Notes under the pieces: generated by a model
What the model was told of the DNA's origin: nothing
Database searches by the model: none
Seen by the model: only the letters and a program-made list of their open reading frames with translations
Assembly (NCBI RefSeq): GCF_004353825.1
Contig: NZ_SMNA01000003.1
Coordinates: 310,001-374,000 of the forward strand
Direction: 5' to 3'
Source of the DNA: Occultella glacieicola
Lineage (GTDB): Bacteria; Actinomycetota; Actinomycetes; Actinomycetales; Beutenbergiaceae
Length of the DNA stretch: 64,000 bases
Position numbers and translations under genes: made by a program
Shown here: positions 16,461-39,803 of the stretch, piece after piece
How positions within the stretch are numbered: the first letter of the stretch is position 1
Layout of the letters: each line of letters starts with the position of its first letter

Positions 16461-16464
16461 CGGC

Positions 16465-16770: not shown

Positions 16771-16868
16771 GGCGCCATTCTCCCCCAGAATTGCCGACAT
16801 GCCCGGGCCTGCGGATGTCGGTAGCCTGACTGCGGTACCGTGCCGCCGACCCCTCGAGGCAGGACGCG

Positions 16869-17744: not shown

Positions 17745-17748
17745 CGTC

Positions 17749-17834: not shown

Positions 17835-17856
17835 CACGTCGGGTCGGGCAGCAGAG

Positions 17857-17893
17857 CGGGCCCGTCGTCACCGCACCGGTGGCGACGGGCCCG
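17857..17893. terminator. Strong bidirectional terminator hairpin
   Basis: CGGGCCCGTCGTCACC (17857-17872) pairs with GGTGGCGACGGGCCCG (17878-17893), giving a 16-bp stem with one wobble and a five-base loop. It lies between the convergent hydrolase and subtilase genes. Confidence 0.75.
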
Positions 17894-17902
17894 TGGTGAC
17901 TG

Positions 17903-22393: not shown

Positions 22394-22537
22394 TGGAACC
22401 GTCCCCGAGTAGATGGACTCGCAACGCCGCGAGTGAGCCATGTCTAGCCGTTCGGGAACCAGCACGTCAAGGGCCCCTCGGGGTGCGCTGGAGGCACGCC
22501 GGTCATCGTCACCGGCCGAGGTGATCGGCAGGTCGAT

Positions 22538-22583: not shown

Positions 22584-24032
22584 TCAGAGGGTGCGGGTGG
22601 CGATCAGATCGGCGTACCAGCGCGCGGAGTCCTTCGGGGTTCGGGCCTGGGTGTCGTAGTCCACCCGGACGATGCCGAACCGGCGGTCGTAGCCGAACGC
22701 CCACTCGAAGTTGTCGAACAGGGACCAGACGAAGTACCCACGCACATCGGCGCCCGCCTCGACCGCCCGGGCGACGGCGTCCAGGTGGCCGTGCAGGTAG
22801 GAGACGCGGTCGGCGTCGTGCACCACGCCGTCCGGACCCACCTCGTCGTCGAACGCGGCGCCGTTCTCGGTGATCATCAGCGGCGTGTCCGGATGCTCGT
22901 CGCGCAGCCGCAGCAGCAGTTCCAGGAGACCGTCCGGGTCGATGTTCCAGCCCATCGCGGTGAACGGGCCGGGCATCTCGAGGAACTCCACGGTGTCCGC
23001 GCCCACCCAGGGGCTCGCCCCCTCGCCGTGGCCGTCGGCCCGCTCCGGCTCCCCCTCGCCCGCGTGCCGGCGGGCCCGGGACGTCGAGTAGTAGTTCACG
23101 CCGAGGGAGTCGAGCGGGACCTTGATGAGCTCGCCGTCACCGGGCTGCACGAAGGACCAGTCGGTCAGGTGTGCGGTGTCCGCGAGCAGGTCGGCCGGAT
23201 AGGTGCCGTGGAACAGGGGATCCAGCCAGATCCGGTTGCCGACCGCGTCGAGCTGCCGGACGGCGTCGACGTCGGCGGGCGAGTCCGGGTCCACCGGACG
23301 CGTGACGTGCAGGTTCAGGGTGATCGAGATCGGGGTGCCGGAGCCGAGCTCGTCCCGGATCGCGCGGGCGGCCAGCCCGTGGGCCAGGTTCAGGTGGTGC
23401 GCCGCCTGCAGGGCCGCCACCGGTTCGGTCCGACCGGGGGCGTGCACGCCCGCGGCGTAGCCGAGGAAGGCCGCACACCACGGCTCGTTCAAGGTGGTCC
23501 ACAGACTCACCCGGTCACCGAGCTCGGCGGCGACGATCCGGGCGTAGTCGGCGAATGCGTAGGCGGTGGCCCGGTTCGTCCAGCCCCCGGCCTCCTCCAG
23601 CTCGGCCGGAAGGTCCCAGTGGTACAGCGTGACCACGGGCGCGATGCCGGCGGCGATCAGCTCGTCGACGAGCCGGGAGTAGAACGCCAGGCCCTCGGGG
23701 TTCGCCGGGCCGGACCCGCCGGGCTGCACCCGAGGCCAGGAGATCGAGAACCGATACGCGCCGAGCCCGAGGGACCTCATCAGGGCGACGTCCTCGCCGA
23801 CCCGGTGGTAGTGGTCGATCGCGACGTCGCCGGTGTCGCCGTTCAGGGTCTTGCCGGGAGTGTGCGAGAACGTGTCCCAGATCGAGGGCCCGCGGCCACC
23901 CTCGGTGGCGGCGCCCTCCACCTGGTACGCAGCGGTGGCCGAGCCCCAGAGGAAGGCGGGGTCGAAGCGGCGCCCCTGGGTCGCCGTCGCGGCCGTGTCG
24001 GTGGTCACTGCGTTGGTCTCAAGACTGGTCAC
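22584..24032 (-). CDS. GH1 beta-glucosidase
   Basis: A 482-residue cytoplasmic family 1 glycosidase without a signal peptide. The acid/base is E183 in TLNEPW and the nucleophile E389 in [14 protein letters not shown] and YHWDLP are also typical. It would release beta-linked glucose (or galactose/xylose) from the non-reducing end of oligosaccharides. The GTG at 24032 overlaps the end of the GH31 gene by 14 bases; a second in-frame GTG at 24008 is an alternative. As third gene of the GH42-GH31-GH1 operon, it fits removal of backbone glucose from xyloglucan oligosaccharides once side chains are gone. Confidence 0.92.
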
Positions 24033-26343
24033 GAGCTGCTCCGTCGGTGTCGAGCCCCGCCCACGCCGGCGGGACGTCCAGTGAGAGGGTATCCCCGCTC
24101 GCGCGGTGCTCGGCGCCGCCGACCAGGACCGACCAGGGGCGGTCCGTCCCGGCGGCGCGCACGTCGAGGCGGTGACCGGCGCGGGTCACCGTGAACGTCG
24201 CCGCGGTGCCCGAGGCGTCCGCCGTCGGAATGCTCACGGTGGCGACCTCGCCGTCGGCGAACTCGAACACCGCCAGCCGCACCCCGTCGGCGTAGTCGTA
24301 GTCCGGGCGGTCGGTGCGCGACCCGAGCGGCAGCACGGTGCCGGGCCGCACGAGCACCGGCAGGGTGTCGAAGCCGTGCCGCTGGCGCACCCACCGCGGG
24401 CCGGTCAGCCGCTCGTCGGTGAGCAGGTTCGTCCAGGTGCCCTCCGGCACGTAGAACTCCACCTCGCCGTCGACGTCGAAGACCGGGGCCACCAGCAACG
24501 AGTCGCCGAGCAGGTACTGGGTGTCCGCCGCGGCCGCGCTGCGGTCACGGGGGAACTCCAGGACCATCGGCCGCATCACCGGCACCCCCTCGTCGGTGGC
24601 GATCTGGCCGGCCCGGGCCAGGTAGGGCATCAGCTCGTGCTTCAGGTGGATGAACCGGCGGGCCACGTCCACCGCCTCGTCGTCGAACGCCCACGGCACC
24701 CGGTAGGAGGACGACCCGTGCAGGCGGCTGTGCGAGGACAGCATCCCGAACGCGAGCCACCGCTTGAACACGGCCGCCTCCGGCATCCCCTCGAAGCCGC
24801 CGATGTCATGGCTCCAGAACCCGAAACCGGACATCGCCAGGGACAGCCCCCCGCGCAGCGACTCCGCCATCGAGGCGAACGTGGACTCGCAGTCCCCACC
24901 CCAGTGCACCGGGAACTGCTGCCCGCCCGCGGTCGCGGACCGGGCGAACAGCACCGCCTCTCCGGTCCCCCGCTCCTTCTGGAGCAGTTCGAAGACGCAC
25001 GCGTTGTACAGGTGCGTGTAGTAGTTGTGCATCCGCTCCGGGTCGGAACCGTCGTGCCAGACGACCTCGGTGGGGATCCGCTCGCCGAAGTCCGTCTTGA
25101 ACGCGTCCACGCCCTGGCGCAGCAGCACTCTGAGCTTGTCCTGGTACCAGGTCCACGCGCCGGGGTTGGTGAAGTCCACGAGTGCCATCCCGGCCTGCCA
25201 CATGTCCCACTGCCACACGTCCCCCGTGGGCGTCGTGACCAGGTAGCCGAGCTCGGCGGCCTCCGCGAACAGGTGCGAGCGCTGGGCGATGTAGGGGTTG
25301 ATCCACACCGACACCTTGAGGTCGCGCTCGTGGAGCCGCCTCAGCATGCCCTCCGGGTCGCCGAACGTGGCCGGGTCCCACACGAAGTCGCACCAGTGGA
25401 ACTGGCGCATCCAGAAGCAGTCGAAGTGGAACACCGACAGCGGCAGGTCCCGCTGCGCCATGCCGTCGATGAAGGAGGTGACCGTCTCCTCGTCGTAGTC
25501 GGTGGTGAACGAGGTGGACAGCCACAGCCCGTAGGACCAGGTGGGCACCCGCGCCGGGCGGCCGGTCAGGGCCGTGTACCGGCGCAGCACCTCCTTCGGG
25601 TCGGACCCGCCGATGACGTAGTACTGCAGCACCTGACCCGGCACCGAGAACTGGGTGCGGGAGACCACCTCGGTGCCGACCTCGAAGGAGACCCGCTCCG
25701 GGTGGTCCACGAACACCCCGTAGCCGCGGTCGGAGACGTAGAAGGGGACGTTCTTGTACGCCTGGTCCGACGCGGTGCCGCCGTCCTCGTTCCAGATGTC
25801 GATCGACTGACCGTTCTTGACCAGCGGCCCGAACCGCTCACCGAGTCCGTACAGGTGCTCGGCGACGCCGATGTCCAGTTGCTCGCGGACGTAGTGGGAG
25901 CCGTCGTCGGTGGAGATGATCCCGACGCCGCGGTCCTGGGAGCCGGTCAGGACCCGGCCGCCGGCGTCCGTGAACTCCAGCCGCCAGGGCCCCTCGGTCG
26001 CGACGGTCGCGGTGAGGTCGCCCGCGGTGAACGTGGCCGGCTCGCCGCCCGCCTCGGGCCGGTCGATCCGCACGACCGGGGGCGCGGACTCCAGCTCGAA
26101 CGCCGGACGCCGCTCCCGGCCGCCCCGGAAGTGCTCGATCCGCACCCCGATCACCCCGTCCAGGGGTGAGTCGAGCGTGATCGTCACCATCGGCCGGTTC
26201 AGCGTGTCCCCGCGGCGGGTGAGCGGCGCGGTGGCCGCGTACACGGTCAGCGAGTCACCGCCGTCCTCGACCGACTCCACGTGCCGGGGGCGCAGGATCT
26301 CCACGCCCGGCAGCACGTTCCAGTAGCCGTCGGTGAACTTCAT
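24019..26343 (-). CDS. yicI: GH31 alpha-xylosidase (YicI-like)
   Basis: A 774-residue family 31 enzyme with nucleophile D418 (KTDFGERIP) and acid/base D484 (WGGDCEST), within two residues of E. coli YicI (D416 and D482). The Cys-Phe pair of FDCFWM (309-310) and the Phe of [10 protein letters not shown] (279) match YicI positions linked to xylose over glucose preference, so alpha-xylosidase is much more likely than alpha-glucosidase. No signal peptide. The ATG at 26343 overlaps the GH42 stop as ATGA, so the two are coupled. It would remove alpha-1,6-xylose from xyloglucan oligosaccharides. Confidence 0.93.
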
Positions 26344-28346
26344 GGTTGCCTCTCGATCAGGACGACGCTGCCGTCGGCCGGGACGGGTGCGGTGTGCGGG
26401 TGGTCGGTGCCGGTCAGGACGTCCCGGCAGGCCCGCGTCAGCGGTACCGCGACGGGCGTGCGGGTGTGGTTCAGCAGGAACGTGTGGTCGCCACGGACGG
26501 CGACCTCCACTCCGGGTGGTGGCTGCGCCACCTGGCCCGACGGCGTCACACCGGCCTGCTCGAGGCAGGTCGCCACCCAGGCCTCGAGCAGGTCGTCGCC
26601 GCCGACGGCGGCGAGGTAGAGCAGCCGGCCGTCCGGCGAACGCACGGCTGCGGGCGCGCCGTCCAGGTCCGCACCGGCGAACCTGCCGAGGACGACGGCG
26701 GAGCTCGCCTCGAGCCGTTCCGCCCAGGTGTGCACGGGGTAGCGGTGACCGTCCAGATCGAGGTGCGCGCCGCCGTCGGGCAGCGGGCACCACTCCTGGC
26801 CGCCGGCGCCCAGCAGGTCCGTGAACGGCGCCGGGAACTCCCCGGTGCGGATCGCGGTGTTCGCGTCGGCGACGGCGCTGAACGGCCCGAGTGCGAGGGT
26901 GCCGCCGGCCGCGGTGAAGGCGCGCAGGTTCGCCACCGCGGCGTCGGTGACCAGGTGCAGCTGGGGAGCGAGGACCAGGTCGTAGCCGGTCAGGTCCGCC
27001 TCCGGGTGGACCAGGTCGACGGCCAGCCCGCGCCGCCACAGCGGCCGGTACCAGGACAGCACCTGCGGCAGCACCCGCAGCCGCGCGCTCGGTCCGCCCG
27101 GCTCCTCCGCGGCCCACCAGCTGGACCAGTCGAACGCGATCGCGACCCGGGCCCGGATCTCCGACCCCGCGACGGGGGCGAGGGCGGCCAGGTCCGTGCC
27201 GAGCTCACGGACGCTGCGGTGCAGGCGGGTGCGCACACCGGCGTGCGGCAGCATCGCGGAGTGGAACCGCTCGGCGCCGGCGCGCGACGCCCGCCACTGG
27301 AACGAGAGCACCCCGTCGGAGCCGTGCGCGATCGCGCGCAGGGCGTCGGCGCGCATCCGCCCCGGCGTCTTCGGCGGGTTGTGCTCGCGCCAGTTCACGG
27401 CGCCGACGGCCTGCTCCATGAGCAGCCAGGGGCCGCCTGCGAGGGACCGCATCAGGTCGTGGGTGAGCGCGGCCAGGACCGGGGCGTCGGGGTCGACCGG
27501 GTCGGGGTAGGAGTCGTCGGAGATGACGTCGAGCGCACCCGCCCAGGACCAGTAGTCCACGTGCGGGAAGAAGCCCATGAAGTTGGTCGTCACCGGAACG
27601 GCCGGGGCGGCCGCGCGGATCACGTCCCGCTGCGCCGTGTACAGCTCCAGGAGGGTGTCGGAGCAGAACCGGCGGTAGTCCAGCCGCTGGGTCGGGTTGA
27701 TCAGGTACGGCGCCGCCCGGGGCGGCACGATCTCCTCCCAGCGCGAGTAGGCCTGGGACCAGAAGGTCGTGGCCCAGGCGGCGTTCAGGCCGGCGACGTC
27801 GCCGTACCGGGCCCGCAGCCAGGCCCGGAACCCGGCCGCACACGCGTCGCAGTGGCAGACTTGACCGAACTCGTTGCCGACGTGCCACATGACGACGGCC
27901 GGGTGGTCGGCGTACCGGGCCACGACGTCCGAGGCGATCGCGAGCGCGTGGGCACGGTAGGTCGGCGAGCTCGGGCAGAAGTGGTTGCGGGAACCCTGGC
28001 TCAGGCGCACGCCGTCCGCGGTGACCGGCAGGGTATCGGGATGGTCGTGGGCCAGCCATGGTGGTGGGCTCGCGGTCGGGGTGGCCAGGTCCACGGCGAT
28101 GCCGGCCCCGGCCAGCAGGTCCAGGACCCGGTCCAGCCAGGCGAAGTCCCGCTCCCCCGGGCGAGGCTCGATCCGGCTCCACGCGAACACGCCGACGGTC
28201 ACCAGGTTCACGCCGGCCGCGACCATCAGGTCGACGTCCTCGGCCCAGACCTCGGCGGTCCACTGCTCCGGGTTGTAGTCGCCGCCGTAGAGCAGCCCCC
28301 GGGTAGCGGTGAGGTCCCGTAGCCCCGGGCCCGTGCTGCCGGTCAT
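26340..28346 (-). CDS. GH42 beta-galactosidase
   Basis: A 668-residue family 42 enzyme. The GGDYNPEQW start motif, acid/base E159 (HVGNEFG), nucleophile E311 (LLMEQAVGAVNW), a Cys cluster (CHCDACAAGF) that binds zinc in GH42 trimers, and a C-terminal trimerisation domain (about 400-590) are all present. It has no signal peptide and acts in the cytoplasm. I chose ATG 28346, which follows GGGAGG, over an upstream start that adds 47 residues reaching across the promoter. First gene of the operon, behind a TTTACA-TAGGGT promoter with an operator-like palindrome. In this locus it should remove galactose from the Gal-beta-1,2-Xyl side chain. Confidence 0.92.
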   Translation of the reverse strand: MTGSTGPGLRDLTATRGLLYGGDYNPEQWTAEVWAEDVDLMVAAGVNLVTVGVFAWSRIEPRPGERDFAWLDRVLDLLAGAGIAVDLATPTASPPPWLAHDHPDTLPVTADGVRLSQGSRNHFCPSSPTYRAHALAIASDVVARYADHPAVVMWHVGNEFGQVCHCDACAAGFRAWLRARYGDVAGLNAAWATTFWSQAYSRWEEIVPPRAAPYLINPTQRLDYRRFCSDTLLELYTAQRDVIRAAAPAVPVTTNFMGFFPHVDYWSWAGALDVISDDSYPDPVDPDAPVLAALTHDLMRSLAGGPWLLMEQAVGAVNWREHNPPKTPGRMRADALRAIAHGSDGVLSFQWRASRAGAERFHSAMLPHAGVRTRLHRSVRELGTDLAALAPVAGSEIRARVAIAFDWSSWWAAEEPGGPSARLRVLPQVLSWYRPLWRRGLAVDLVHPEADLTGYDLVLAPQLHLVTDAAVANLRAFTAAGGTLALGPFSAVADANTAIRTGEFPAPFTDLLGAGGQEWCPLPDGGAHLDLDGHRYPVHTWAERLEASSAVVLGRFAGADLDGAPAAVRSPDGRLLYLAAVGGDDLLEAWVATCLEQAGVTPSGQVAQPPPGVEVAVRGDHTFLLNHTRTPVAVPLTRACRDVLTGTDHPHTAPVPADGSVVLIERQP

Positions 28347-28389
28347 CGACCGCCTCCCTGCTGTCCGCGCTGACTGATCGACCGGATTG

Positions 28390-28403
28390 TCGAAGCGGTT
28401 CAA
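28390..28403. promoter_or_regulatory. LacI-family operator 1
   Basis: TCGAAGCGGTTCAA is an imperfect palindrome centred on CG, the layout of LacI/GalR operators. It starts one base after the -10 box of the GH42 promoter, so bound repressor would cover the start point. GTCGAAGCGGTTC (28389-28401) recurs exactly at 36712-36724. The likely ligand is the LacI protein encoded at 30955. Confidence 0.7.
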
Positions 28404-28404
28404 C

Positions 28405-28433
28405 ACCCTAGCGAGGGCCTGGTCGTGTGTAAA
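28405..28433 (-). promoter_or_regulatory. Promoter of the GH42-GH31-GH1 operon
   Basis: On the minus strand TTTACA (28433-28428) and TAGGGT (28410-28405) are 17 bases apart, close to the sigma-A consensus. The leader to the GH42 ATG would be about 55 bases. Operator 1 lies immediately downstream. No equally clear plus-strand promoter for the fucosidase was found; TAAAGT at 28430 overlaps this -35 box. Confidence 0.6.
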
Positions 28434-28480
28434 GTGGCGTGCGCGAGGCTCTGGCAAGTCCCGCTGATCGGAGTGGATCC

Positions 28481-30961
28481 ATGACAACGACCGCGCTTCT
28501 CCCGTTCTTCGAGGCCCCCGAGGACGACCCCGCTACGCTGCTCTGGTACCACGGTGGAGCGTCGAGCTTCGTCGAATCGCTTCCGGTCGGCAACGGACAC
28601 GCCGCCGCCATGGTCGCCGGCCGTCCCGGCGGCGAGGTCCTGCAGCTGAACGAGGGGTCGGCGTGGTCCGGCCCGAGCGCCGTGGCCGACCCCGAGCTCG
28701 AGCCGGCCGAGGGCCCGGGGCTGCTCGCCCGGATCCGGGAGCACCTGGCCGACGGCGACGTGCGGGCGGCCGAGGCCCTGCAGAGGGCGTTCCAGGGCGG
28801 GCACTCGCAGGCCTACCTGCCGTTCGCGCAGGTGCGGGTCGCCGTCCGGCCGACGGCCACCGATTCCTCGGATGCCCCCGCCCCCGCCCGTTGGCTGGAC
28901 CTGCGCACGGCCTCGGCGGGACACCGCTACCTCGCGGGCGGCATCCGGGTGGCGCACCACACCTACGCCTCGCACCCGGCCGGTCTGATCGTGCACGAGG
29001 TCCACGCCGAGTCCGGTGTGGATCTGGACGTCCGGTTGGACCCCGACCAGGTCCGTGAGCTCACCCGCGATGCGCGGGCCGAGATCGTCGGCACCGCGCG
29101 TCTGCTCCTCGAGCTCCTGCTGCCGGCCGACGTCCCGGCCATCCGGGAGCACGCCGACCCGCCGGCCAGGTACACCGGCGACTCACGCACCGGCCTCGTC
29201 CACGTCGCCATCGAGACCGACGGTGAGGTGACCACCGACGACGCCGGTGCCCACGTGCGCGGCGCCCGGATGACACGCCTGCTGATCGGGACCGGGACCG
29301 TGCTCCCCGAGCCGCGGACGGGGCCGCACCGGCACGCGAACACCGCCAGCACTCTCGAGGCCCTGCACGACCTGCTCGCCGACCGGATCGAGGCGGCCCA
29401 CGCCGTCGCGCCGGAGCAGCTGTACGCCGAGCACGTCGCGGACCACCGCGAGCTCTTCGACCGGGTCCGGCTCGACCTCGGCCCGATCACAGCGGAGCCG
29501 ACGGACGAGCGGATCCGGGCCGCGAACGCCCCGGGCGCCGACCGGGACCCGGCCGGCCTCACCGGGCTGATCGCGCTCGCGTTCCACTACGGCCGCTACC
29601 TGCTGATCGCGTCGTCCCGGCCGGGCGGGTACCCGGCCAACCTGCAGGGCATCTGGAACGGCGAACTGCCCGCGCCCTGGAGCTCGAACTACACGATCAA
29701 CATCAACACCGAGATGAACTACTGGCCGGCGCTGACCACGAACCTGGCGTCCTGCCAGGCGCCGCTGCTGGACCTGGTGGACACCCTGGCGGGGACCGGG
29801 CGCGCCGCGGCCGAGCTCTACGGCGCCCGCGGCTGGCTGGCGCACCACAACACCGATCCCTGGGGCTATCCGTACGCAGCCGGGGCGGGCGCCGGGGACC
29901 CGGCCTGGTCGGCCTGGCCGATGGGCGGCATCTGGCTGTGCCGGTCGGTGTGGGACCACCTGGAGTTCACCGGTGACCTGGCCCGGGCCCGCCGGTCCTG
30001 GCCGGCGATCGAGGGAGCCTGCCGGTTCGCCCTGGACTGGATCGTGCGGACCGGTCCGGGACCCGCCCGGACGTCCCCGTCGACGTCGCCGGAGAACCGG
30101 TTCGTCGCCGCCGACGGCGCGCCCGCCGCACTGTCGGTCTCCACGACCATGGACGTGGCGCTGCTGCGCGACCTGGCCGCCCGGGCGGCCGCGATCGCAT
30201 CCCGGATCGGCGCGGACGCACCGTGGCTCGCCGACCTGACCGACGCCGTCGCCGCGCTGCCGGACCCGAGGGTCGGCGAGCGCGGCGAACTGCTCGAGTG
30301 GTCCGCACCGCTGGCCGAGTACGAACCCGAACACCGGCACACCTCGCACCTGGTCGGCCTGTTCCCGCTCGGGCTGTGGACCTGTGACGGCACGCCCGAC
30401 CTCGCCGCCGCGGCGGCCCGGACCCTGGACCTGCGGGGCCAGGAGTCCACCGGCTGGGCGCTCGGGTGGCGGCTGTCGCTGTGGGCCCGGCTGCGCCGCG
30501 GGGACCGGCTCGACGAGGTGCTCGCCCTCGCCCTGCGGGCGGCCGACGACGGCGCCGGTCAGCGCGGCGGGGTCTACCCGAACCTGTTCAGTGCCCACCC
30601 GCCGTTCCAGATCGACGGGAATTTCGGGATCGTCGCGGGGATCGCCGAGGCGCTCCTGCAGTCCCACGAGGGCGTGATCGATCTGCTCCCGGCCCTGCCG
30701 CCGGCCTGGCCGGCCGGCTCCGTGCGTGGCCTGCTCGCCCGCGGCGGCGTCGTGGTCGACCTGAGCTGGGACGACGGCGGACACCTCACCGAGGCGAGCC
30801 TGCGCGTCGCGGCCACCGGTGCCGGGGAGAATGGCACGGGCGAGCCGACCGAGCACCTGGTCCGGTGGCCGGGCGGCACCGAGCGGGTCCGGATCGGCGC
30901 CGGGGCGGCTGCCGTCGTGCGGCCGCTCGCTCACCAGCGAACAGGAGCCGGCAGATGGTGA
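28481..30961 (+). CDS. GH95 alpha-L-fucosidase
   Basis: An 826-residue family 95 enzyme with the usual beta-sandwich start ([19 protein letters not shown]) and an alpha/alpha barrel. The Asn pair N407/N409 ([11 protein letters not shown]), the Glu of TSPENRF and the Asp of FQIDGNFG match the residues reported as catalytic in Bifidobacterium AfcA. GH95 enzymes mainly release alpha-1,2-fucose, the linkage capping galactose in xyloglucan. No signal peptide, so it acts in the cytoplasm. ATG 28481 follows GGAG; the longer reading from 28439 starts inside the promoter region. The stop overlaps the LacI start by seven bases. Confidence 0.92.
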
Positions 30962-31956
30962 CGATCAACGACGTGGCCCGCCGGGCCGGGGTCTCGGTCT
31001 CCACCGTGTCCTACACCCTCAGCGGGAAGCGGACGATCTCGGCGAGCACCCGGGCGCGGGTCGAGAAGGCGATCGCCGAGCTCGGCTACCACCCGCACGC
31101 CGGTGCCCGGGCGCTGGCCTCGGCCCGGACGAACATCCTCGCCCTGATGGCGCCGCTGCGCCCCGACGTCGACGTCAGCGTCATCATGCAGTTCGTGACC
31201 GGCGTGGTCACGCGGGCGCGGACGGCGGACTACGACGTGCTCCTGCTCACCCAGGACGAGGACAACGGTGTGGGGCGGGTGGGCTCCGGCTCGCTCGTGG
31301 ACGCGCTGATCCTGATGGACGTCGAGTCCGACGACCCGCGGATCCCGCAGGTCGCCGCGCTCCGGCAGCCCACCGTGCTGATCGGCCTGCCGGAGGACGC
31401 CCGCGGGGTGAGTTGCGTCGACTTCGACTTCGAGGCGGCGGCACGGCTCTCGCTGCGGCACCTGACCAGGCTCGGTCACCGCGACGTCGCGCTGATCGGG
31501 CCGCCGCCGGCAGTGATCGCACGGCACACCTCCTACGCGGACCGGCTGCTGCGCGGCTACCGTGCCCAGGCCACGCACGACGGCGTCGCGTGCGTCATCG
31601 AGCCGACCGGTACGTCGCGCGCGGAAGCGATCGCGGCCCTGGACGCCGTGCTGGACCAGGTCCCGGGCCTCACCGGACTGGTCGTGCACAACGAGGCCGC
31701 ACTCCCGGTGATCCTCGGTGGTCTGCGCCGTCGCGGCCTGAAGGTCCCCGAGGACGTCTCCGTGGTGGCGCTCGCCCCGGCGGACGTGGCCGATGCCCAG
31801 CCGGTCCCGATCACGGCCATGGACATCCCGGCGCTGAACATCGGGCAGGTCGCCGTGGACATGGTGCTGGCCAGGCTCGCCGGCTCCGACACCGTGGAGA
31901 CCCGCCTGATCGCTCCCACCCTGCACGAGCGGGCGAGCACCGCACCGCCGCGCTGA
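30955..31956 (+). CDS. LacI-family transcriptional regulator
   Basis: A 333-residue regulator with an N-terminal LacI helix-turn-helix and hinge ([20 protein letters not shown], then ARALAS), followed by a periplasmic-binding-protein-like sensor domain. Its ATG lies inside the last codons of the fucosidase gene, so it is translationally coupled to it. Three LacI-type palindromes lie just after the -10 boxes of the GH42 operon, the importer operon and the GH3 gene, and this is the only regulator nearby. I infer that it represses the whole locus until a fucose-, galactose- or xylose-containing sugar binds. Confidence 0.92.
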
Positions 31957-31967
31957 CCCGGGACCTC

Positions 31968-31985
31968 CGGCCCAGGCCTGGGCCG
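31968..31985. terminator. Perfect palindrome between lacI and usp
   Basis: CGGCCCAGGCCTGGGCCG is a perfect 18-base palindrome 12 bases after the lacI stop. It can form a stem of about seven pairs and probably ends the fucosidase-lacI transcript. No T-run follows. Confidence 0.5.
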
Positions 31986-32007
31986 AGCCGCGGCGGGAGG
32001 ATGGCGT

Positions 32008-32859
32008 ATGGACATTCCCCGAGGTGCTGTCATCGTCGGATACGACGGCTCGCCGGACGCCGATCTGGCCGTGGAGTGGGCGGACCGGGCCGCTGCGGAG
32101 CAGTCCGTTCCCCTGCATCTGATCTGCTCGGTCTTCGACGCCTCCGCCGTGTCCTACTCGGCCTCGGCCGCCTGGTACGACCTACGGCTGACGTCGCTGC
32201 GCGACTCGCTGGAGCGACGCCTGGAGGGCCTCACCGCCCGGGCGGTCACCTCCGAGATCATCACCGGGCCGCCGGTCCCGGCCCTGGTGGAAGCCTCCCG
32301 CGGCGCCGCCATGGTGGTGGTCGGGGCGCGCGGCCACAGCCTCGCCGGCGGTCTCCTGCTCGGCTCGGTGAGCCAGCACGTCAGCCGCCACGCCGAATCC
32401 CCCGTCGTGGTGGTCAGAGCTCCTGCCGATCCGCACGCCACCCGGATCGTGGTGGGGGTCGACGGCTCAGGAGGCTCCGGGGCCGCGCTGGACTTCGCGT
32501 TCGCGCATGCGGCTCGCACCGGCGCACCGCTGCGCGCGGTCTACGGGTGGTGGCACACCCGGGCCGGGCGGGTGGAGGGGCTCGGCGCCCCGATCAATGA
32601 CATCGGCGCCGCAATCGCCTCCGGCGAGCGGATCCTCGCCCAGGCGATGGCCGGGCAGCGCACGGCCGAACCCGACGTGGTCGTGGAGACGATCGTGCTG
32701 CCCACACCCCCGTCGGTGCTGCTCGCCGAGGAGTCCTCGACCGCCGCACTCGTCGTGGTCGGGTCCAGGGGGCGAGGGGCGTTCAAGGGCATGCTGCTCG
32801 GCTCGGTCAGCCAGGACGTGCTGCGGACCGCGCGGTGCCCGGTCGCGGTGGTCCGGTAG
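32008..32859 (+). CDS. Tandem universal stress protein (UspA family)
   Basis: A 283-residue cytoplasmic protein with two Usp domains (about 5-140 and 148-283). Both keep the ATP-binding signature GxRGxxxxxGxxLGSVS (ARGHSLAGGLLLGSVSQ and SRGRGAFKGMLLGSVSQ), so both should bind nucleotide. Proteins of this type respond to energy stress, hypoxia or dormancy in Actinobacteria. The start follows GGGAGG. It lies within the sugar locus but behind a palindrome, so it is probably a separate transcript, and I see no functional link to xyloglucan. Confidence 0.92.
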   Translation: MDIPRGAVIVGYDGSPDADLAVEWADRAAAEQSVPLHLICSVFDASAVSYSASAAWYDLRLTSLRDSLERRLEGLTARAVTSEIITGPPVPALVEASRGAAMVVVGARGHSLAGGLLLGSVSQHVSRHAESPVVVVRAPADPHATRIVVGVDGSGGSGAALDFAFAHAARTGAPLRAVYGWWHTRAGRVEGLGAPINDIGAAIASGERILAQAMAGQRTAEPDVVVETIVLPTPPSVLLAEESSTAALVVVGSRGRGAFKGMLLGSVSQDVLRTARCPVAVVR

Positions 32860-32938
32860 GCCGGGCCGTTCCGGCCCGAGAGAGCGCAAGCGGCAGCCAC
32901 AACAGCGCACTCACCGGGATGCGTCGAAGGTGCCGGTC

Positions 32939-32977
32939 GTGAGAGTGCGGAGGTGGCGACCACTTCCGCACTCTCAC
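32939..32977. terminator. Strong bidirectional terminator hairpin
   Basis: GTGAGAGTGCGGAGGTGG (32939-32956) pairs with CCACTTCCGCACTCTCAC (32960-32977), an 18-bp stem with one G-T wobble and a three-base loop. It lies eight bases past the permease stop at 32985, between the convergent usp and importer genes. Confidence 0.8.
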
Positions 32978-32984
32978 CGGGGTG

Positions 32985-33989
32985 TCAGCCCTTGATCGCG
33001 CCGAAGATGACTCCCTTCGTGAAGTGGCGCTGCACGAACGGGTAGACGACCAGCACCGGGATGATCGCGAGGACCATCACGGCCATCTTGACCGGCAGCC
33101 CGGTCACGGCGCCCGTCGCGACATCCACCTGACCGACCCCGGAACCGGGGAGGGTGACGCCCTGCAGCACGTACGAGCGCAGCACCAGCTGCAGGGGCCA
33201 CTTCGCGTTGTCGTTGATGTAGAGCATCGCGTTGAAGAACGCGTTCCAGTAGCCGACCCCGTAGAACAGGGCGACCACCGCCGTCACGGCCTTCGACATC
33301 GGCAGCACGATCTGGCCGAGCACCCGCCACTCCCCCGCGCCGTCGATCCGCGCGGCATCGGTGATGCCGGGGTCGATGCCCATGAAGAAGTTGCGCAGCA
33401 GGAGCACGTTGAACGCCGAGACCGCACCGGGCAGGATCAGCGACCAGTAGGTGTCGATCAGGCCGAGGTTGCTCACGAGCAGGTAGGTCGGGATCATGCC
33501 GGCCCCGAAGAACATGGTGATCAGCAGCACGAACAGGATCGGGCGGTGCCCGAACGAGGTCGGCCTGGACAGCCCGTAGGCGCACAGGATCGAGACCGTC
33601 GTGGACAGCAGGGTGCCGACCGCGGTGATGCCGATGCTCACCAGCGTCGCCCTGGTCACGATGCCGCCGGCGAGGATCTGCCGGTAGGCGGCCGTGGTGA
33701 CCTCGGTCGGCACGGTGACCAGCCCGCCAGCCTGGGTGACCGCCGCGGTCGTGGACAGCGAGGTGATGATCACGGTGTACAGCGGATACACGACGGCGAG
33801 CACGATCAGGGCGAGCACGATCACCTTCGCGCCGGTCCCCAGCGCGGTGGGTCTCTCCTCCCAGACCGGGCGGTGCTTGGAACGGCGGGGACGACGGCGC
33901 GGGTCGGGCCGGGCAGAACCGGCGGCGGCCGCGTCGACGGGCGGGTGGGTGGCGGTGGCGGCCCCGTCGGGTCCGAGTGCGGTACTCAT
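32985..33989 (-). CDS. Carbohydrate ABC transporter permease (LplC/YtcP-like)
   Basis: A 334-residue inner-membrane protein with six predicted TM helices and the ATPase-docking EAA loop (DAARIDGAGEWRVLGQIVLP). The C-terminus HFTKGVIFGAIKG is typical of the LplC/YtcP group that imports oligosaccharides. A basic, Arg-rich cytoplasmic N-terminus precedes TM1. ATG 33989 overlaps the stop of the partner permease as ATGA. No ABC ATPase is in the window; many Actinobacteria share one ATPase (MsiK) among sugar importers. Confidence 0.92.
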   Translation of the reverse strand: MSTALGPDGAATATHPPVDAAAAGSARPDPRRRPRRSKHRPVWEERPTALGTGAKVIVLALIVLAVVYPLYTVIITSLSTTAAVTQAGGLVTVPTEVTTAAYRQILAGGIVTRATLVSIGITAVGTLLSTTVSILCAYGLSRPTSFGHRPILFVLLITMFFGAGMIPTYLLVSNLGLIDTYWSLILPGAVSAFNVLLLRNFFMGIDPGITDAARIDGAGEWRVLGQIVLPMSKAVTAVVALFYGVGYWNAFFNAMLYINDNAKWPLQLVLRSYVLQGVTLPGSGVGQVDVATGAVTGLPVKMAVMVLAIIPVLVVYPFVQRHFTKGVIFGAIKG

Positions 33990-35005
33990 GCGCGCTTGTA
34001 CACCCCAGCTTCTCCGAAGACATGGGCAATCTTGTTGGCGCCGAGCACCAGGATCAGGCTCACGATGCCCTTGACGAGCCCCGCGGCGGCGGCGAAGCTC
34101 CAGTCGCCGTTGATCACGCCCTGGTAGTAGACGAACGTGTCGAGCACCTCCGCCACGCCGGCACCGACGGCGCCGCGCTGCAGGATCAACTGCTCGAAGC
34201 CGACGGTCAGGGCGTCGCCGAGCCGCAGGATGAGCAGCAGGATGATGACCGGGCGCAGCGCCGGCAGGGTGATGTGCCACATCCGTCGCCATCGGTTCGC
34301 GCCGTCCATCACCGAGGCCTCGTACAGCGCCGGGTCCACGGTGGACAGGGCCGCGAGGAAGATGATGATGCCCCAGCCCGCGTCCTTCCACACCGACTGC
34401 GCGGTGATCAGCAGCAGGAACGTGTCCGGGTTCGTCATGATGTCGAACCCGGAGAAGCCCGCTCCCTCGAGGATCCGGTGCAGCTGCCCGGCGCCGCCGA
34501 GCAACTGCTGGAAGATCGTGACCACGAGCACCCAGGAGAAGAAGTGCGGCAGATACACGACCGACTGGATCGTGGTGCGGATCGCCGGGGTGATCACGCT
34601 GTTCAGCAGCAGGGCGAGCGCGATCGGGATCGGGAAGAAGAACACGAGCTGGAACGCCGTGATGACCAGCGTATTGCGGACCGCGTCCCAGAACAGCGGG
34701 TTCGTGAAGACGCGCTCGAAGTTCCACCAGCCCACGAACGGGGAGTCGAGGATGCCCACGTAGGGCGAGTAGTCCTGCCAGGCGATCACGTTGCCGAGCA
34801 TCGGCACGTACGCGAACACCCCGAGCAGGACGATCACCGGGACGGTCATCAGCAGCAGCGACCGGTCCCGCTTGATCCGGGTCCAGACGCTCCGGCGGCG
34901 TGGTCGCGGCGGGCCGGTCGGGGCGGGCCCGGCGCCGCCGGGCCCGGACCGGTCGACGGGTTCGGCGTGGTCGGTCACGTCGGTGGGCACCGTCCGGGTC
35001 GTCAC
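33986..35005 (-). CDS. Carbohydrate ABC transporter permease (LplB-like)
   Basis: A 339-residue six-TM permease of the LplB group, with the EAA loop EASVMDGANRWRRMWHITLP and the end motif GEAGVYKRA. It pairs with the LplC-like permease downstream; the reading frames overlap at both ends (GTGA with the binding-protein gene, ATGA with the other permease). LplB/LplC systems usually import complex oligosaccharides, which fits the glycosidase set here. Confidence 0.92.
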   Translation of the reverse strand: MTTRTVPTDVTDHAEPVDRSGPGGAGPAPTGPPRPRRRSVWTRIKRDRSLLLMTVPVIVLLGVFAYVPMLGNVIAWQDYSPYVGILDSPFVGWWNFERVFTNPLFWDAVRNTLVITAFQLVFFFPIPIALALLLNSVITPAIRTTIQSVVYLPHFFSWVLVVTIFQQLLGGAGQLHRILEGAGFSGFDIMTNPDTFLLLITAQSVWKDAGWGIIIFLAALSTVDPALYEASVMDGANRWRRMWHITLPALRPVIILLLILRLGDALTVGFEQLILQRGAVGAGVAEVLDTFVYYQGVINGDWSFAAAAGLVKGIVSLILVLGANKIAHVFGEAGVYKRA

Positions 35006-36651
35006 TGCGCGTCCAGGATGTCGGTGTAGAAGGCGCGCAGTTCCTCACCGCCCGAGGTCTTCCAGGTCTCGATGGCGGCGTCCAGGTCCGCCATCGACTT
35101 GCGGCCGCGGGAGATGTCCTTCTCGAGGTCTTCGAACGGCTGGGCCAGGGACGCGTACTGGGTCGGCTCGGTGATCTGCATCCCGAAGAACGCCGGGTCG
35201 TTCACGTACTGGGCGGCGTCGGCCATCCAGGTGCAGAACGCCTCGACGAACCCCGGATACTGCACCTTGGCGTTCACCACGGGCGGGTCGGTCAGGAAGA
35301 TGTAGGTGGGCTGCACCTCGGTGGCGGCCAGTTCGGTGGCCACCGGCAGGCCGTTCGCGTCCACGCTGAAGTGCAGGTCCTCGAGCCCGAAGTTGATCAG
35401 TTCGAACTCGGTGGTGCCGAACGGAGAGGCGAGGAAGTCGGCGACCGCGAGCAGTTCCTCGATCTTCGCAGGATCGGAGTTCTTCTTGAGGAACGAGAAG
35501 ATGTTGGCCGGGTTCCCCTTCCACAGGACCGGGGTGCCGCCGTCGGCCGCGAACGGGGTGAACGGACGCTGGGAGTACGTCGGGTTGGACGCCAGCTGCC
35601 GGCCGAGCGCCTCGTGCCAGCCGCCGACGCCGTCGTTGCTGATCAGGACCTGGCCGGACTCGAATCGGGTCTTGGCATCCCCGGAGTTGTCCGCGACCGC
35701 ATCCGGGTGCACGGAGCCCTGCGCGAACAGCGCGGCGTTCCACTCCAGCGCGGCCCGGTACTCGTCGGTCTCGACGCGGTGGGTGAGCGTGCCGTCGTCG
35801 TTGATCCGCCACTTCGGAACCACGCCGTGGATGATCACCGAGGAGTTCCACAGGTCGTTGGCCGCCCACCGGTCGCCGCCGGTCAGTTCCTTGGCCAGGT
35901 CGAGCAGCTCCTGACCGTTCGCCGGCTGGCCGGTGTACCCCTCCGCCTCGAGGACGTCGTCGCGGTAGAAGATCGCGTCGGTGATGATCTCGCCCGGGAA
36001 CGGGAGCGCCTTGAGCTGGCCGTCGAAGACGCAGAACTTCCAGACGTCGGTGGGGATGTTCGCCAGGTTCGGGTACTTCTCCACGGCCGAGCCGGCCAGG
36101 AACGGGGTGAGGTCCTCGAACAGGGCCTCGACGGCCTGGTCGAACCGCGGCGGGATGTTCCAGGTGGGGATCGAGACCCAGTCCGGCACGTCCCGCTCGG
36201 AGGCGAGCACGGCCGCGAGCTTGTCGCCGTAGGCGTTGCCGTCACTGATCTGGAACTGGATCGTGGAGCCGATGGCCGCGTTCACGGCGTCGAAGTACTG
36301 GTTGCCCTCGGTGGGCGGGATCGCGCCCCAGAGCGGCGTCATCGCGGTGAACTCCGACCCGGATCCGGGCGGAGCGTCGAACACCTGCACCAGGTCCGTC
36401 GGGATCGTCGCGTACCCGGCCGTGGAGCCGTTCACACTCGGGAAGTCCGGTTCCACGTAGTCGATCGGGATGTAGTCGGGCAGCGCGCTCGTCACGTCGC
36501 CGCCGCTCGGGTCGCCGGCACCGCCGGGTGCTTCCGAGCTGCAGCCGGCGAGGACGGCCGGGGTTGCCGCACCAACGCCGAGGAGGGTCAGGAACGAGCG
36601 CCGGTTCAACGGCAGCACTCGGGTCGCGTCTGAGTCCAGGTTCATGTTCAT
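35002..36651 (-). CDS. Tat-exported lipoprotein, oligosaccharide-binding subunit of the importer
   Basis: A 549-residue extracellular solute-binding protein of the LplA type. The N-terminus has a twin-arginine motif (NRRSFLTLL) and a lipobox (LAGC), so it should be exported folded and lipid-anchored. The mature domain (about 40-549) is large, as in binders of long oligosaccharides. I chose ATG 36651. AAGGAG lies 11 bases upstream of it but directly abuts the upstream GTG at 36663, which therefore cannot use it. First gene of the importer operon, behind a TTGCCA-TACCAT promoter and operator 2. Transported ligand inferred: xyloglucan-derived oligosaccharide. Confidence 0.9.
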   Translation of the reverse strand: MNMNLDSDATRVLPLNRRSFLTLLGVGAATPAVLAGCSSEAPGGAGDPSGGDVTSALPDYIPIDYVEPDFPSVNGSTAGYATIPTDLVQVFDAPPGSGSEFTAMTPLWGAIPPTEGNQYFDAVNAAIGSTIQFQISDGNAYGDKLAAVLASERDVPDWVSIPTWNIPPRFDQAVEALFEDLTPFLAGSAVEKYPNLANIPTDVWKFCVFDGQLKALPFPGEIITDAIFYRDDVLEAEGYTGQPANGQELLDLAKELTGGDRWAANDLWNSSVIIHGVVPKWRINDDGTLTHRVETDEYRAALEWNAALFAQGSVHPDAVADNSGDAKTRFESGQVLISNDGVGGWHEALGRQLASNPTYSQRPFTPFAADGGTPVLWKGNPANIFSFLKKNSDPAKIEELLAVADFLASPFGTTEFELINFGLEDLHFSVDANGLPVATELAATEVQPTYIFLTDPPVVNAKVQYPGFVEAFCTWMADAAQYVNDPAFFGMQITEPTQYASLAQPFEDLEKDISRGRKSMADLDAAIETWKTSGGEELRAFYTDILDAQ

Positions 36652-36712
36652 GTTCGCGTTCACTCCTTCGTGGATGGCGGCCGCTCACACGCTGCGCCTC
36701 TGTGCGCCGTCG

Positions 36713-36726
36713 TCGAAGCGGTTCGA
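36713..36726. promoter_or_regulatory. LacI-family operator 2
   Basis: TCGAAGCGGTTCGA is a near-perfect palindrome around CG (six of seven positions symmetric). It lies eight bases past the -10 box of the importer promoter, over the expected start point, and shares its 13-base core with operator 1. Confidence 0.7.
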
Positions 36727-36734
36727 ACGCCTCG

Positions 36735-36764
36735 ATGGTAGGGCACCGTGCACAGACCTGGCAA
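36735..36764 (-). promoter_or_regulatory. Promoter of the importer operon
   Basis: On the minus strand TTGCCA (36764-36759) and TACCAT (36740-36735) are 18 bases apart. The start point would fall inside or next to operator 2, and the leader to ATG 36651 would be about 75 bases. Confidence 0.55.
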
Positions 36765-36883
36765 CCGCCTGGATCGTGGACGTCCGGCGGCTGGATCGTC
36801 GACGGGCGAACCGCCATAATGAAACGAGATGACCGCACCTCAGACCGCCCACGAGAAGCGCTCGAAGCCGCCGATGGCGGCGG

Positions 36884-36905
36884 TACCTTCATCGAACCGA
36901 TTCGA
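36884..36905 (+). promoter_or_regulatory. GH3 promoter -10 box and LacI-family operator 3
   Basis: TACCTT (36884-36889) fits a -10 box; the -35 region (about 36861, CTCGAA) is weak. Two bases further, TCGAACCGATTCGA (36892-36905) is a palindrome symmetric at six of seven positions, related to operators 1 and 2 (TCGAA-N4-TTCGA with central CG). Confidence 0.55.
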
Positions 36906-36947
36906 ACCCGGATCGCTCTCACGACGTCAGGCAAAGGAGCACCGACG

Positions 36948-39803
36948 GTGCCGCAGTCGAACCCGGCAGAACCCCCCGCGGACGCGAGCGGCGTCCGTTC
37001 CCGCGACTCCCTCGACTCCCTCGTCCATGACCTGCTCGCCCGGCTCACCGACGACGAGAAGGTGGCCATGCTGCACCAGGCGAGTCCCGCCGTCGGGCGC
37101 CTCGGCCTGTTGCCGTTCCACACCGGCGCGGAGGCCCTGCACGGGGTCGCCTGGCTCGGTCGGGCCACGTTGTACCCGCAGCCCGTCGGCCTCGCCGCGA
37201 GCTGGGACCCGGATCTGCTGCGCCGGATCGGGGACCAGGTCGGCACCGAGCTGCGCGCCAAGCACGCCGCCGACCCGACGGTCAGCCGGAATGTGTGGGC
37301 GCCGGTGGTGAACCCGTTGCGGCACCCACTCTGGGGCCGCAACGAGGAGGGCTACTCCGAGGATCCGCACCTGACCGCCGACCTCGGCACCGCCTACGCC
37401 CGCGGGCTGCGGGGTGAGGACACCCGGATCTGGCGCACCGTGCCGACGCTCAAGCACTTCCTCGCCTACAACAACGAGACCGACCGTGCGGTCACCTCCT
37501 CGCAGTTGCGCCCGCGTGTGCTGCACGAGTACGAGTTGCCGGCGTACCGGGGCCCGATCGAGGCCGGGGTGGTGGGAGCGGTGATGCCCTCCTACAACCT
37601 GGTCAACGGTCGGCCGAACCATGTCGCGCGCGAGTTGCTGGAGCTGTTGCGGTCCTGGACCGAGGAGTCGGTGCTGGTGGTCTCCGACGCCGGCGCGCCC
37701 ACGAACCTGAGTGTCGCCGAGCGCTACCACCCGGACCCGGTCGTGGCGCACGCGGCGGCACTCGTGGCCGGGGTGGACTCGTTCACGGACAACGGGCCGG
37801 ACCCGGCGCCCACGATCGCCCTGATCAGGCAGGCGCTCGAGCGGGGCCTGATCACGATGGCCGACGTCGACCGCGCCGTCACCCGGGTGCTGACCGTACG
37901 CGCCAACTCCGGTGAGTTCGACACCGAGGACCCCTACGACGCCATCACCGCCGAGCACCTCGACCTGCCTACGCACCGTGAGCTCGCCAGGGAGGCCGCC
38001 GGGCGGGCCGTGGTGGTGCTGCGCAACACGGGGGTGCTGCCGCTCGCGCCGGTGGGCTCGGTGGCGGTGATCGGGCCGCTCGCGGGCCGGGTGCTGCCGG
38101 ACTGGTACGCGGGCACCCCGCCGTACACGGTGAGCCTCGCCGACGCTGTCCGGGCGCGCTGGGGCGCGACCGATCCCGGGGACGTCAGCGTGCTGGACGG
38201 CTCGGACCGGGTCGCGCTGCGCTCGGTCGGCACCGGCGCCTACCTGCGGGCCGGTGCCGACCGGGTCCTGGTCGCCGACGCCGCCGACGTCGCCGCGAGG
38301 GCCGGCGAGGACGTGCTCTGGGACGTCACCGACTGGGGGCACGGGGTGCTCACCCTGGCCGGTGCGACCACCGGCCTGCTCCTGCGTGCGGACGGCGAGC
38401 GGGTCCTGGCCGATGCGACCCGGCCCCAGGGCTGGGTGGTGGGCGAGTCCTGGCGGGCGCACCGGCACCCCGACGACACCTGGTCCCTCCAGCACCTCGG
38501 CACCGGCCGGTGGCTGCGCGCGGACGCGTATGGCAGTGGGGTCGGCGCCACCGCCGCGAGCGTGGACGAGGCCGAGCGGTTCGTCCGCCGGCTCGTGCGC
38601 TCAGGCGCCGAAGAGGCCGCCGCCGCCGCCGTTGACGCGGACGTGGTGCTGTGCGCCGTCGGCAACGACCCGCACCTGCTCGGCCGGGAGACGCAGGACC
38701 GGCCCGCCCTCGACCTGCCGGCGCCGATGGCCGAACTGTGGCGCACCGTCCGGGAGGCGAACCCGGCCGCGGTGCTGGTCCTGGTCTCGAGCTACCCGTA
38801 CGCGCTCGACGCCGCCGCCCGCGACGCCGCCGCGATCGTGTGGACCGGCCACGGCGGCCAGGAGGCCGGCAACGGGCTGCTGGACGTGCTCCTCGGCGAG
38901 GTCGAGCCGAGCGGCCGGCTCCCGCAGACCTGGTGGCGCAGCGAGGCCGACGCGGGCGACCTGCTCGACTACGACATCCTCGGTGCGGGCACCACCTATT
39001 GGTACTGCGACGCCGAACCGCAGTTCGCGTTCGGGCACGGGCTCACCTACGCCCAGGTGTGCTACGACGCCCTGTCGGTGGAACCGGACGGCGACGGCGT
39101 GCTCGCCCGGGTGAGCGTGTCGAACACCGGGGACCGGCCGGCCACCGAGGTGGTCCAGGTCTACACCGACTCCCCCGACCACCCGGTGCGGTTCCCGCGC
39201 CGCCTCGCCGCCCATGCCCGGGTCCCGCTCGCGCCCGGTGAGCACCGCACCGTGTCCCTGCGGGTCCCCGCCGAGCGGTTCGCGGTCTGGGACACCACCC
39301 GCCACGCCATGACGGTCCTGGCCGCCGACTACCGGGTGCTGGCCGGACCGAGCGCCGCCGACACCCCCCTACGCGCACGCCTCACGCTCGACGGCGAGCC
39401 GGCTGCCCCGCACCGGCTGCCGCTGCGCGCGGTCGACTTCGACACCCACCACGGCACCCGGATCGAGGAGGCCACCCTGGCCACGGGCGAGGTGATCACC
39501 GCGCCGTCGGGCTCGGGATGGCTGGAGTTCACCGCCGTCGAGGGTCTCGCCGAGGCGGCCGTGGTCACCGTCGCCCGCACGGCGCCGGGACCGGCCTCGG
39601 TGACCCTGGAGACGGTCGCCGACGGCGGAGCGCGCCCGTTCGCGCGGGCGGCGGTCCCCGAGGGGCTGGGTCGGCACGACCTCACCGAGGTGGTGCTGGA
39701 ACCCGTACGGTCCATCGGGCGGCCGGTCACGGGACGGACGCCGGGCCTGCGGGTGGTGCTGACCGGCCCGGTGCGCCTGGCCGGGTTCGGCGTCGGGCGA
39801 TGA
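36948..39803 (+). CDS. GH3 beta-glycosidase with inserted beta-trefoil domain
   Basis: A 951-residue cytoplasmic family 3 enzyme (beta-glucosidase or beta-xylosidase). The N-terminal barrel has nucleophile D247 (VVSDAGAP) and KHFLAYNNE. The C-terminal sandwich has GRETQDR (E581, a candidate acid/base) and GHGGQEAGNGLLDVL, followed by a fibronectin-like domain. Between the two catalytic domains, at about 419-550, lies an insert with three visible fascin/ricin-like beta-trefoil repeats (GTGAYLRAG, TTGLLLRAD, GTGRWLRAD), a possible sugar-binding module. GTG 36948 was chosen for AAAGGAG eight bases upstream. It is divergent from the importer operon and preceded by operator 3. Glucose or xylose specificity is not decided by sequence. 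Confidence 0.88.
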   Translation: MPQSNPAEPPADASGVRSRDSLDSLVHDLLARLTDDEKVAMLHQASPAVGRLGLLPFHTGAEALHGVAWLGRATLYPQPVGLAASWDPDLLRRIGDQVGTELRAKHAADPTVSRNVWAPVVNPLRHPLWGRNEEGYSEDPHLTADLGTAYARGLRGEDTRIWRTVPTLKHFLAYNNETDRAVTSSQLRPRVLHEYELPAYRGPIEAGVVGAVMPSYNLVNGRPNHVARELLELLRSWTEESVLVVSDAGAPTNLSVAERYHPDPVVAHAAALVAGVDSFTDNGPDPAPTIALIRQALERGLITMADVDRAVTRVLTVRANSGEFDTEDPYDAITAEHLDLPTHRELAREAAGRAVVVLRNTGVLPLAPVGSVAVIGPLAGRVLPDWYAGTPPYTVSLADAVRARWGATDPGDVSVLDGSDRVALRSVGTGAYLRAGADRVLVADAADVAARAGEDVLWDVTDWGHGVLTLAGATTGLLLRADGERVLADATRPQGWVVGESWRAHRHPDDTWSLQHLGTGRWLRADAYGSGVGATAASVDEAERFVRRLVRSGAEEAAAAAVDADVVLCAVGNDPHLLGRETQDRPALDLPAPMAELWRTVREANPAAVLVLVSSYPYALDAAARDAAAIVWTGHGGQEAGNGLLDVLLGEVEPSGRLPQTWWRSEADAGDLLDYDILGAGTTYWYCDAEPQFAFGHGLTYAQVCYDALSVEPDGDGVLARVSVSNTGDRPATEVVQVYTDSPDHPVRFPRRLAAHARVPLAPGEHRTVSLRVPAERFAVWDTTRHAMTVLAADYRVLAGPSAADTPLRARLTLDGEPAAPHRLPLRAVDFDTHHGTRIEEATLATGEVITAPSGSGWLEFTAVEGLAEAAVVTVARTAPGPASVTLETVADGGARPFARAAVPEGLGRHDLTEVVLEPVRSIGRPVTGRTPGLRVVLTGPVRLAGFGVGR

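Follow-up and report, generated by a model that had tools for sequence, protein, structure and literature searches.

What purpose is served by five glycoside hydrolases (GH) without visible signal peptides, gathered around a LacI-family regulator and an importer? This question is raised by positions 22584-39803 of a 64,000-nucleotide stretch of DNA (contig NZ_SMNA01000003.1), hereafter the window, from Occultella glacieicola (Ruaniaceae, Micrococcales in the NCBI taxonomy), whose genome comprises 5.34 Mb in 23 contigs. Judged from its genes, the region is probably a LacI-controlled xyloglucan-oligosaccharide utilisation locus of the import-then-degrade kind. A preliminary description, made from the letters of the window alone, had listed GH95, GH42, GH31, GH1 and GH3 enzymes together with a LacI regulator and an LplA/B/C-type importer of the ATP-binding cassette (ABC) class. 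All of these were present, identified by profile matches or, for the binding protein, by lipobox, homologues and predicted fold. The features are given below with their predicted functions, including a universal stress protein that the preliminary description had not named.

22584..24032, minus strand: GH1 beta-glucosidase, last of the three genes in the GH42-GH31-GH1 unit, overlapping the end of GH31 (PF00232, E 7.2e-155; NCBIfam TIGR03356 BGL, 583.3 bits against a cut-off of 478.5)
24019..26343, minus strand: GH31 YicI-type alpha-xylosidase (NCBIfam alpha-xylosidase model PRK10658, 1220.8 bits against a cut-off of 606; best PDB matches YicI chains)
26340..28346, minus strand: GH42 beta-galactosidase, encoded at the head of its unit (PF02449, E 1.1e-143; PF08532)
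28390..28403, no strand: operator-like site TCGAAGCGGTTCAA between the divergent GH42 and GH95 genes (gap comparison; equivalents in relatives)
28481..30961, plus strand: GH95 alpha-L-fucosidase or alpha-L-galactosidase (PF22124, E 4.5e-140)
30955..31956, plus strand: LacI-family regulator, overlapping the GH95 stop (PF00356, PF13377; start taken from the sequence)
32008..32859, plus strand: universal stress protein (PF00582)
32985..33989, minus strand: LplC-type ABC permease (PF00528)
33986..35005, minus strand: LplB-type ABC permease (PF00528)
35002..36651, minus strand: LplA-type lipoprotein solute-binding protein, predicted oligosaccharide receptor (RR followed by an LAGC lipobox; predicted fold; homologues)
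36713..36726, no strand: operator-like site TCGAAGCGGTTCGA ahead of the binding-protein gene (exact site)
36892..36905, no strand: operator-like site TCGAACCGATTCGA ahead of GH3 (exact site; equivalents in relatives)
36948..39803, plus strand: GH3 beta-glucosidase/beta-xylosidase-like enzyme into which a domain of some 140 residues is inserted (PF00933, PF01915, PF14310)

The region had been described as one xyloglucan locus. The results showed four transcription units rather than one, linked by common operator-like sites: GH42-GH31-GH1 leftward, GH95-LacI rightward (followed by the universal stress protein), binding protein-LplB-LplC leftward, and GH3 rightward. Neighbouring genes overlap by 4 bases at GH42/GH31, LplC/LplB and LplB/binding protein, and by 7 bases at GH95/LacI.

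Enzymes and importer

The GH31 protein, predicted to be a YicI-type alpha-xylosidase, is the firmest enzyme call of the locus. It scored below the cut-offs of two alpha-glucosidase models of NCBIfam (MalA and PRK10426), and its best solved-structure matches, by alignment to PDB chains, were YicI chains. The Cys-Phe pair and the YicI-type features noted in the preliminary description were recovered, with DCFWM found alongside KTDFGE and HWGGD. The motifs DCFWM, KTDFGE, WGGD and HDIGG were each present in the window protein and in all 27 homologues that are 600 residues or longer; we take the Cys-Phe pair, the nucleophile and the acid/base motif to play the parts that they have in YicI.

Signal peptides had been said to be missing from all five enzymes, and none was visible at their N-termini by eye or in a crude hydropathy scan, in which GH42 showed one hydrophobic stretch (2.11) inside the first 60 residues, away from the very start. 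From the absence of a visible signal peptide alone, the five enzymes are predicted to be cytoplasmic. Within its family, the GH3 protein is best described as beta-glucosidase/beta-xylosidase-like. Its insert lies inside the C-terminal domain (approximately residues 414-550) and was found in all 25 aligned GH3 proteins of the locus, the window's included; the insert appears repeat-like, and the label fascin-like was given by eye from the repeats only.

The binding protein had no Pfam or NCBIfam match at E≤0.001. Its predicted model (predicted local distance difference test 86.9, predicted template modelling score 0.83) was closest in a structure search to AlgQ1, AlgQ2, FusA and a chondroitin-disaccharide receptor, with the leading rows tied. 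At about 60 kDa and with an AlgQ1/AlgQ2/FusA fold in the predicted model, the protein agrees with Cluster G. No ATPase gene was found in the cluster, and three MalK-type ATPase domains are encoded elsewhere in the genome. Including the window's own, twelve LplA-type receptor matches occur in this one genome, the weakest being partial (E 1.7e-6), which suggests broad oligosaccharide scavenging.

Spread of the locus and its palindrome

We scanned genome contigs with the binding protein and obtained 30 loci, the closest named relatives in that scan being Occultella aeris (91%) and O. gossypii (90%). Within the family of the window organism, a binding-protein match was found in 19 of 24 genomes (its own included), 12 of them at ≥56% identity. 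After removal of duplicates, 35 organisms besides the window were represented. These 35 relatives carried the binding protein in 35 cases, LplC in 35, LplB in 34, LacI in 33, GH31 in 32, GH3 in 32, GH42 in 30, GH1 in 25, GH95 in 12 and the stress protein in 3, all of the same genus as the window. Because the same arrangement recurs in 35 other organisms, a chance arrangement is very unlikely. The two relatives lacking LacI are short contigs, and three contigs were too short for GH31, leaving 32 covered loci with GH31 in 32/32, LacI in 32/32, GH42 in 30/32 and GH95 in 12/32; GH1 or GH3 was cut off in some by contig or stretch ends, and a GH95 farther downstream would escape these counts. On this gene content, GH95 is an optional module, and the conserved core consists of the importer, GH31, GH3 and usually GH42 and GH1.

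GH95 was found at three positions, namely between LacI and GH42, after LplC and after GH31. In a 23-row tree each position corresponded to one supported clade; the branching among the clades, Nonomuraea included, is open, so the three positions are not proof of three acquisitions. Promicromonospora sp. AC04 has, in the usual place of GH42 between LacI and GH31, a second gene for a solute-binding protein together with two other genes (positions 14598-18055 of its stretch).

Comparison of the two divergent gaps of the window yielded a palindrome, TCGAAnCGnTTCGA, which stands ahead of GH42/GH95, of the binding-protein gene and of GH3 (sites at 28390, 36713 and 36892) and is new here. The whole genome held only two exact sites, both in the binding protein/GH3 gap, and 18 sites with ≤1 mismatch, compared with 2 for the reversed pattern. 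In the 35 homologous loci (674,454 bases), 113 sites with ≤1 mismatch were found, 71 of them exact, and none of 200 permuted palindromes reached either number (mean 1.1, largest 24; largest exact count 3). All of 122 sites, in 38 loci standing for 34 organisms, lay outside the genes matched by ten reference proteins, and some Cellulomonas had an extra site ahead of GH1. The locus and its palindrome thus recur in Cellulomonas-like actinobacteria; genes, conserved arrangement and conserved palindromes alike can be read directly from the DNA. We infer that the window LacI binds the TCGAAnCGnTTCGA sites, and the genes of the locus are apparently under one genetic switch.

Outside the window, 15 near-operator sites were found, 7 inside predicted reading frames and 8 not. 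At least 3 of these 8 adjoin sugar-related genes: a second transport unit, which lies on contig C22; a GH2 gene whose neighbour encodes a family-5 binding protein; and a LacI/ThuA pair. Others adjoin Ku, LysR/MFS or MFS genes. Beyond the C22 unit, no such site is claimed as a regulon member. The C22 unit (C22:21107-25126) comprises a second receptor, 52% identical to that of the window, two permeases and a divergent hydrolase, with the site GCGAACCGCTTCGA in the gap between these genes; the site was found between the genes of this unit in 4/4 genomes of the genus examined. No LacI-type motif was detected in the 20 kb stretches of three of these genomes, in a search that did find the window LacI. 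Control of this unit in trans by the window LacI is a hypothesis, and a two-importer xyloglucan regulon in Occultella, governed by the window LacI and taking in the C22 receptor, permeases and hydrolase, is a tentative proposal that we hold to be possible but doubtful.

The C22 enzyme is a divergent hydrolase with a predicted GHL6/GH151-type fold. The GH151 fucosidase chain 6TVK was the first match both of its family profile (E 1.5e-28) and of its predicted model (E 3.9e-34; template modelling score 0.81 by target length). This chain is the GH151 enzyme ALfuk2 (PMC10154630). At the position of the ALfuk2 nucleophile Asp154, located with an inferred 29-residue offset between the chain and the numbering of the paper, 17/17 homologues of the C22 hydrolase have Asn. 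Although the fold agrees, the hydrolase was therefore rejected as a GH151 alpha-L-fucosidase; within the two-importer proposal it would perhaps act on xyloglucan side chains.

Substrate and rival readings

We infer the substrate, the order of cleavage and the inducer as follows. Xyloglucan oligosaccharides would be cut outside the cell, probably by other organisms, and bound by the lipoprotein, and the two permeases would bring them in with the help of an ATPase encoded elsewhere. Where a side chain ends in L-fucose (or L-galactose), GH95 would take off that sugar; GH42 would remove galactose, and GH31 xylose at the non-reducing end; GH3 and GH1 would then take off the exposed glucose, and the rounds would repeat. 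In cells lacking the substrate, LacI would occupy the TCGAAnCGnTTCGA sites ahead of the units; its release would be triggered by a sugar that has been taken up or by a degradation product. We favour this reading because the YicI-type GH31 scores far above its alpha-xylosidase cut-off and has conserved active-site motifs, and because the enzyme families and transporter make-up match the experimentally shown system of Ruminiclostridium cellulolyticum. The binding protein also resembles AlgQ1, AlgQ2 and FusA, the large-pocket Cluster G proteins to which the xyloglucan receptor Athe_2052 was likened, the locus is conserved in the 32 covered relatives with palindrome counts beyond the permuted controls, and the genome supplies the MalK-type ATPase domains and a xylose isomerase (651.8 against 447 bits).

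Several results weigh against this reading. The GH3 protein was matched best by beta-xylosidase models, with Xyl3A at the top and all NCBIfam matches far below cut-off, and GH42 and GH1 are both broad families. In the window alone, 4 matches to the palindrome with ≤2 mismatches were found, a number reached by 17 of 100 shuffles and hence not significant, and the permutation control in the homologous loci takes no account of descent. The fold of the binding protein says little about its ligand, because 11 other matches to it exist in the genome, the chondroitin-disaccharide receptor is equally close, and N-glycan and milk-oligosaccharide receptors are near. Finally, a profile search of the genome for L-fucose isomerase (FucI, PF07881) gave no match; oxidative fucose routes were not searched.

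The preliminary description had further specified fucosylated oligosaccharides. The importer and the GH95, GH42, GH31, GH1 and GH3 enzymes do fit stepwise dismantling of xyloglucan oligosaccharides, but the word fucosylated is less well supported, and we lean towards it only modestly. In GH95, the TININ and SPE motifs align with solved GH95 chains, and the catalytic Asn pair, the general acid Glu of SPE and the Asp of the QIDG motif are invariant in 11/11 aligned proteins (residue roles from PMC4491172). The position of AfcA His419 is occupied by Thr in 11/11, a residue known from one L-galactosidase and one L-fucosidase. As a test of fucosidase versus galactosidase, this position was rejected, since it is contradicted by XacAfc95, an alpha-L-fucosidase specific for L-fucose and encoded in a xyloglucan locus, which has the same Thr and whose preference was left unchanged by T395H. 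The same enzyme speaks against a variant that we consider rather unlikely, in which the core serves galactosylated, non-fucosylated oligosaccharides and GH95 is an add-on for L-galactose-bearing or other side chains. This variant would account for the missing FucI, for the 20 of 32 covered loci in which GH95 was not seen, and for GH95 genes on two plasmids that adjoin GH43 or pectin-active genes, because of which the family alone is no marker of xyloglucan; it fits less well with GH95 standing at three places inside the locus, each a supported clade. On a Curtobacterium plasmid, the neighbours of GH95 are genes for an importer, an amidohydrolase and a fumarylacetoacetate hydrolase, which hints at an oxidative route for fucose.

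Use of isoprimeverose or another small alpha-xyloside, with GH31 cleaving imported isoprimeverose and the other enzymes serving unrelated beta-galactosides and beta-glucosides, appears improbable. Xyl31A of R. cellulolyticum was assayed on isoprimeverose, and GH42 is missing from 2/32 covered loci; but the common palindromes tie the units together, and the receptor resembles those for larger oligosaccharides, and the R. cellulolyticum receptor did not bind isoprimeverose. A further rival is the use of glycans from a host or from milk, for example 2'-fucosyllactose, by GH95, GH42 and the importer, as in bifidobacteria. We know of no task for an alpha-xylosidase on such glycans, and because this enzyme occurs in 32/32 covered loci against 12 for GH95, we give that explanation very little credence.

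The preliminary description had seen no endo-xyloglucanase at the locus and had proposed a genome-wide search. Profile searches of the genome returned no GH9, GH12, CBM2 or PF15902 match, GH16 and GH44 not having been searched, and a single GH5 protein on contig C4. The translated start of this GH5 shows no signal peptide by eye, making it a poor candidate for the missing endo-enzyme; none of the families searched thus provided an exported one. PF15902 served as an indirect probe for GH74 and matched in 4/14 control genomes, including Thermotoga maritima, which we take to carry a GH74. Because GH9, GH12, CBM2 and PF15902 were not found and the single GH5 has no visible signal, chain cutting is probably done by other organisms, and the cell would scavenge their oligosaccharides. 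Two Cellulomonas strains are reported to have grown to higher optical density with xyloglucan and to carry GH74-CBM2 (PMC3544764).

Known systems and wider meaning

The contrast drawn earlier between import-then-degrade and the surface-degrading loci of Bacteroidetes is right, but the strategy is not new. In 2016, R. cellulolyticum was shown to take up xyloglucan oligosaccharides through an ABC transporter and to break them down by the successive action of cytoplasmic GH42, GH31 and GH3; the authors noted a cytoplasmic GH95 in the genome and similar clusters in other Gram-positives, and the legend to their related-clusters figure names alpha-fucosidase genes (PMC4780118). In both systems a binding protein is combined with two permeases and no ATPase is included, and GH42, GH31 and GH3 are cytoplasmic there and predicted to be so here. 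The clostridial system uses a two-component AraC-type regulator, whereas LacI and palindromes are found here, with no AraC-type gene among those identified in 22584-39803. R. cellulolyticum is a Firmicute whose genome has cellulosomal endo-xyloglucanases, in contrast to the apparent lack of own endo-enzymes in the window genome, and GH95 and GH1 lie inside the cluster here, GH1 not being mentioned in the accessible text of that report.

Anaerocellum bescii Athe_2052-2054 is likewise a CUT1-type importer near a putative alpha-xylosidase with its ATPase elsewhere (PMC12710961, preprint). Its authors likened the 551-residue xyloglucan receptor to AlgQ1, AlgQ2 and FusA (Cluster G) and placed a chondroitin-type receptor outside (PMC12710961). 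The Athe_2052 structure 9PMY was not among the structure matches listed for our binding protein, which excludes nothing. In contrast to the window organism, A. bescii is a thermophilic Firmicute, and the accessible text mentions neither GH95 nor LacI (PMC12710961). The Xanthomonas xyloglucan locus shares GH95, GH31 and a beta-galactosidase for the same side chains, but has TonB-dependent transporters and GH35 instead of GH42, and it also includes GH74 and an acetylesterase (PMC8245568). No actinobacterial xyloglucan locus was recognised in the literature searched, though Figure 12b of PMC4780118, on clusters in further prokaryotes, may hold one. The import-then-degrade strategy is known from clostridia, and we rate the locus as a LacI-type actinobacterial variant of it.

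As for the surroundings, a block of amidohydrolase, NucS and ATP synthase genes lies beyond GH3 both in Oerskovia merdavium, where it borders GH3, and in the window, where an insertion separates the two; in Cellulomonas sp. Root930 a gene of ATP synthase epsilon type is found near GH3. This common flank suggests an old, vertically inherited place. The window segment 39945-44547, between GH3 and that block, encodes a geranylgeranyl-reductase-like flavoprotein, a type III polyketide synthase, a UbiA prenyltransferase and a GDSL esterase and looks like an inserted prenylated-polyketide gene set. On the other side, the locus adjoins a large subtilase of 1520 residues with PA, fn3, DUF11 and PPC domains (17903-22465).

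Streptomyces xyloglucanase and alpha-xylosidase variants have been linked to tomato loci (PMC9203511). The locus described here, present in many Cellulomonas-like genomes, gives the clostridial route a counterpart in actinobacteria, together with a predicted operator. Its palindrome opens the regulon to direct testing and may lead to additional members, and the optional GH95 predicts the strains that are able to use side chains bearing L-fucose or L-galactose. Carriers that lack endo-enzymes would be oligosaccharide scavengers relying on their neighbours.

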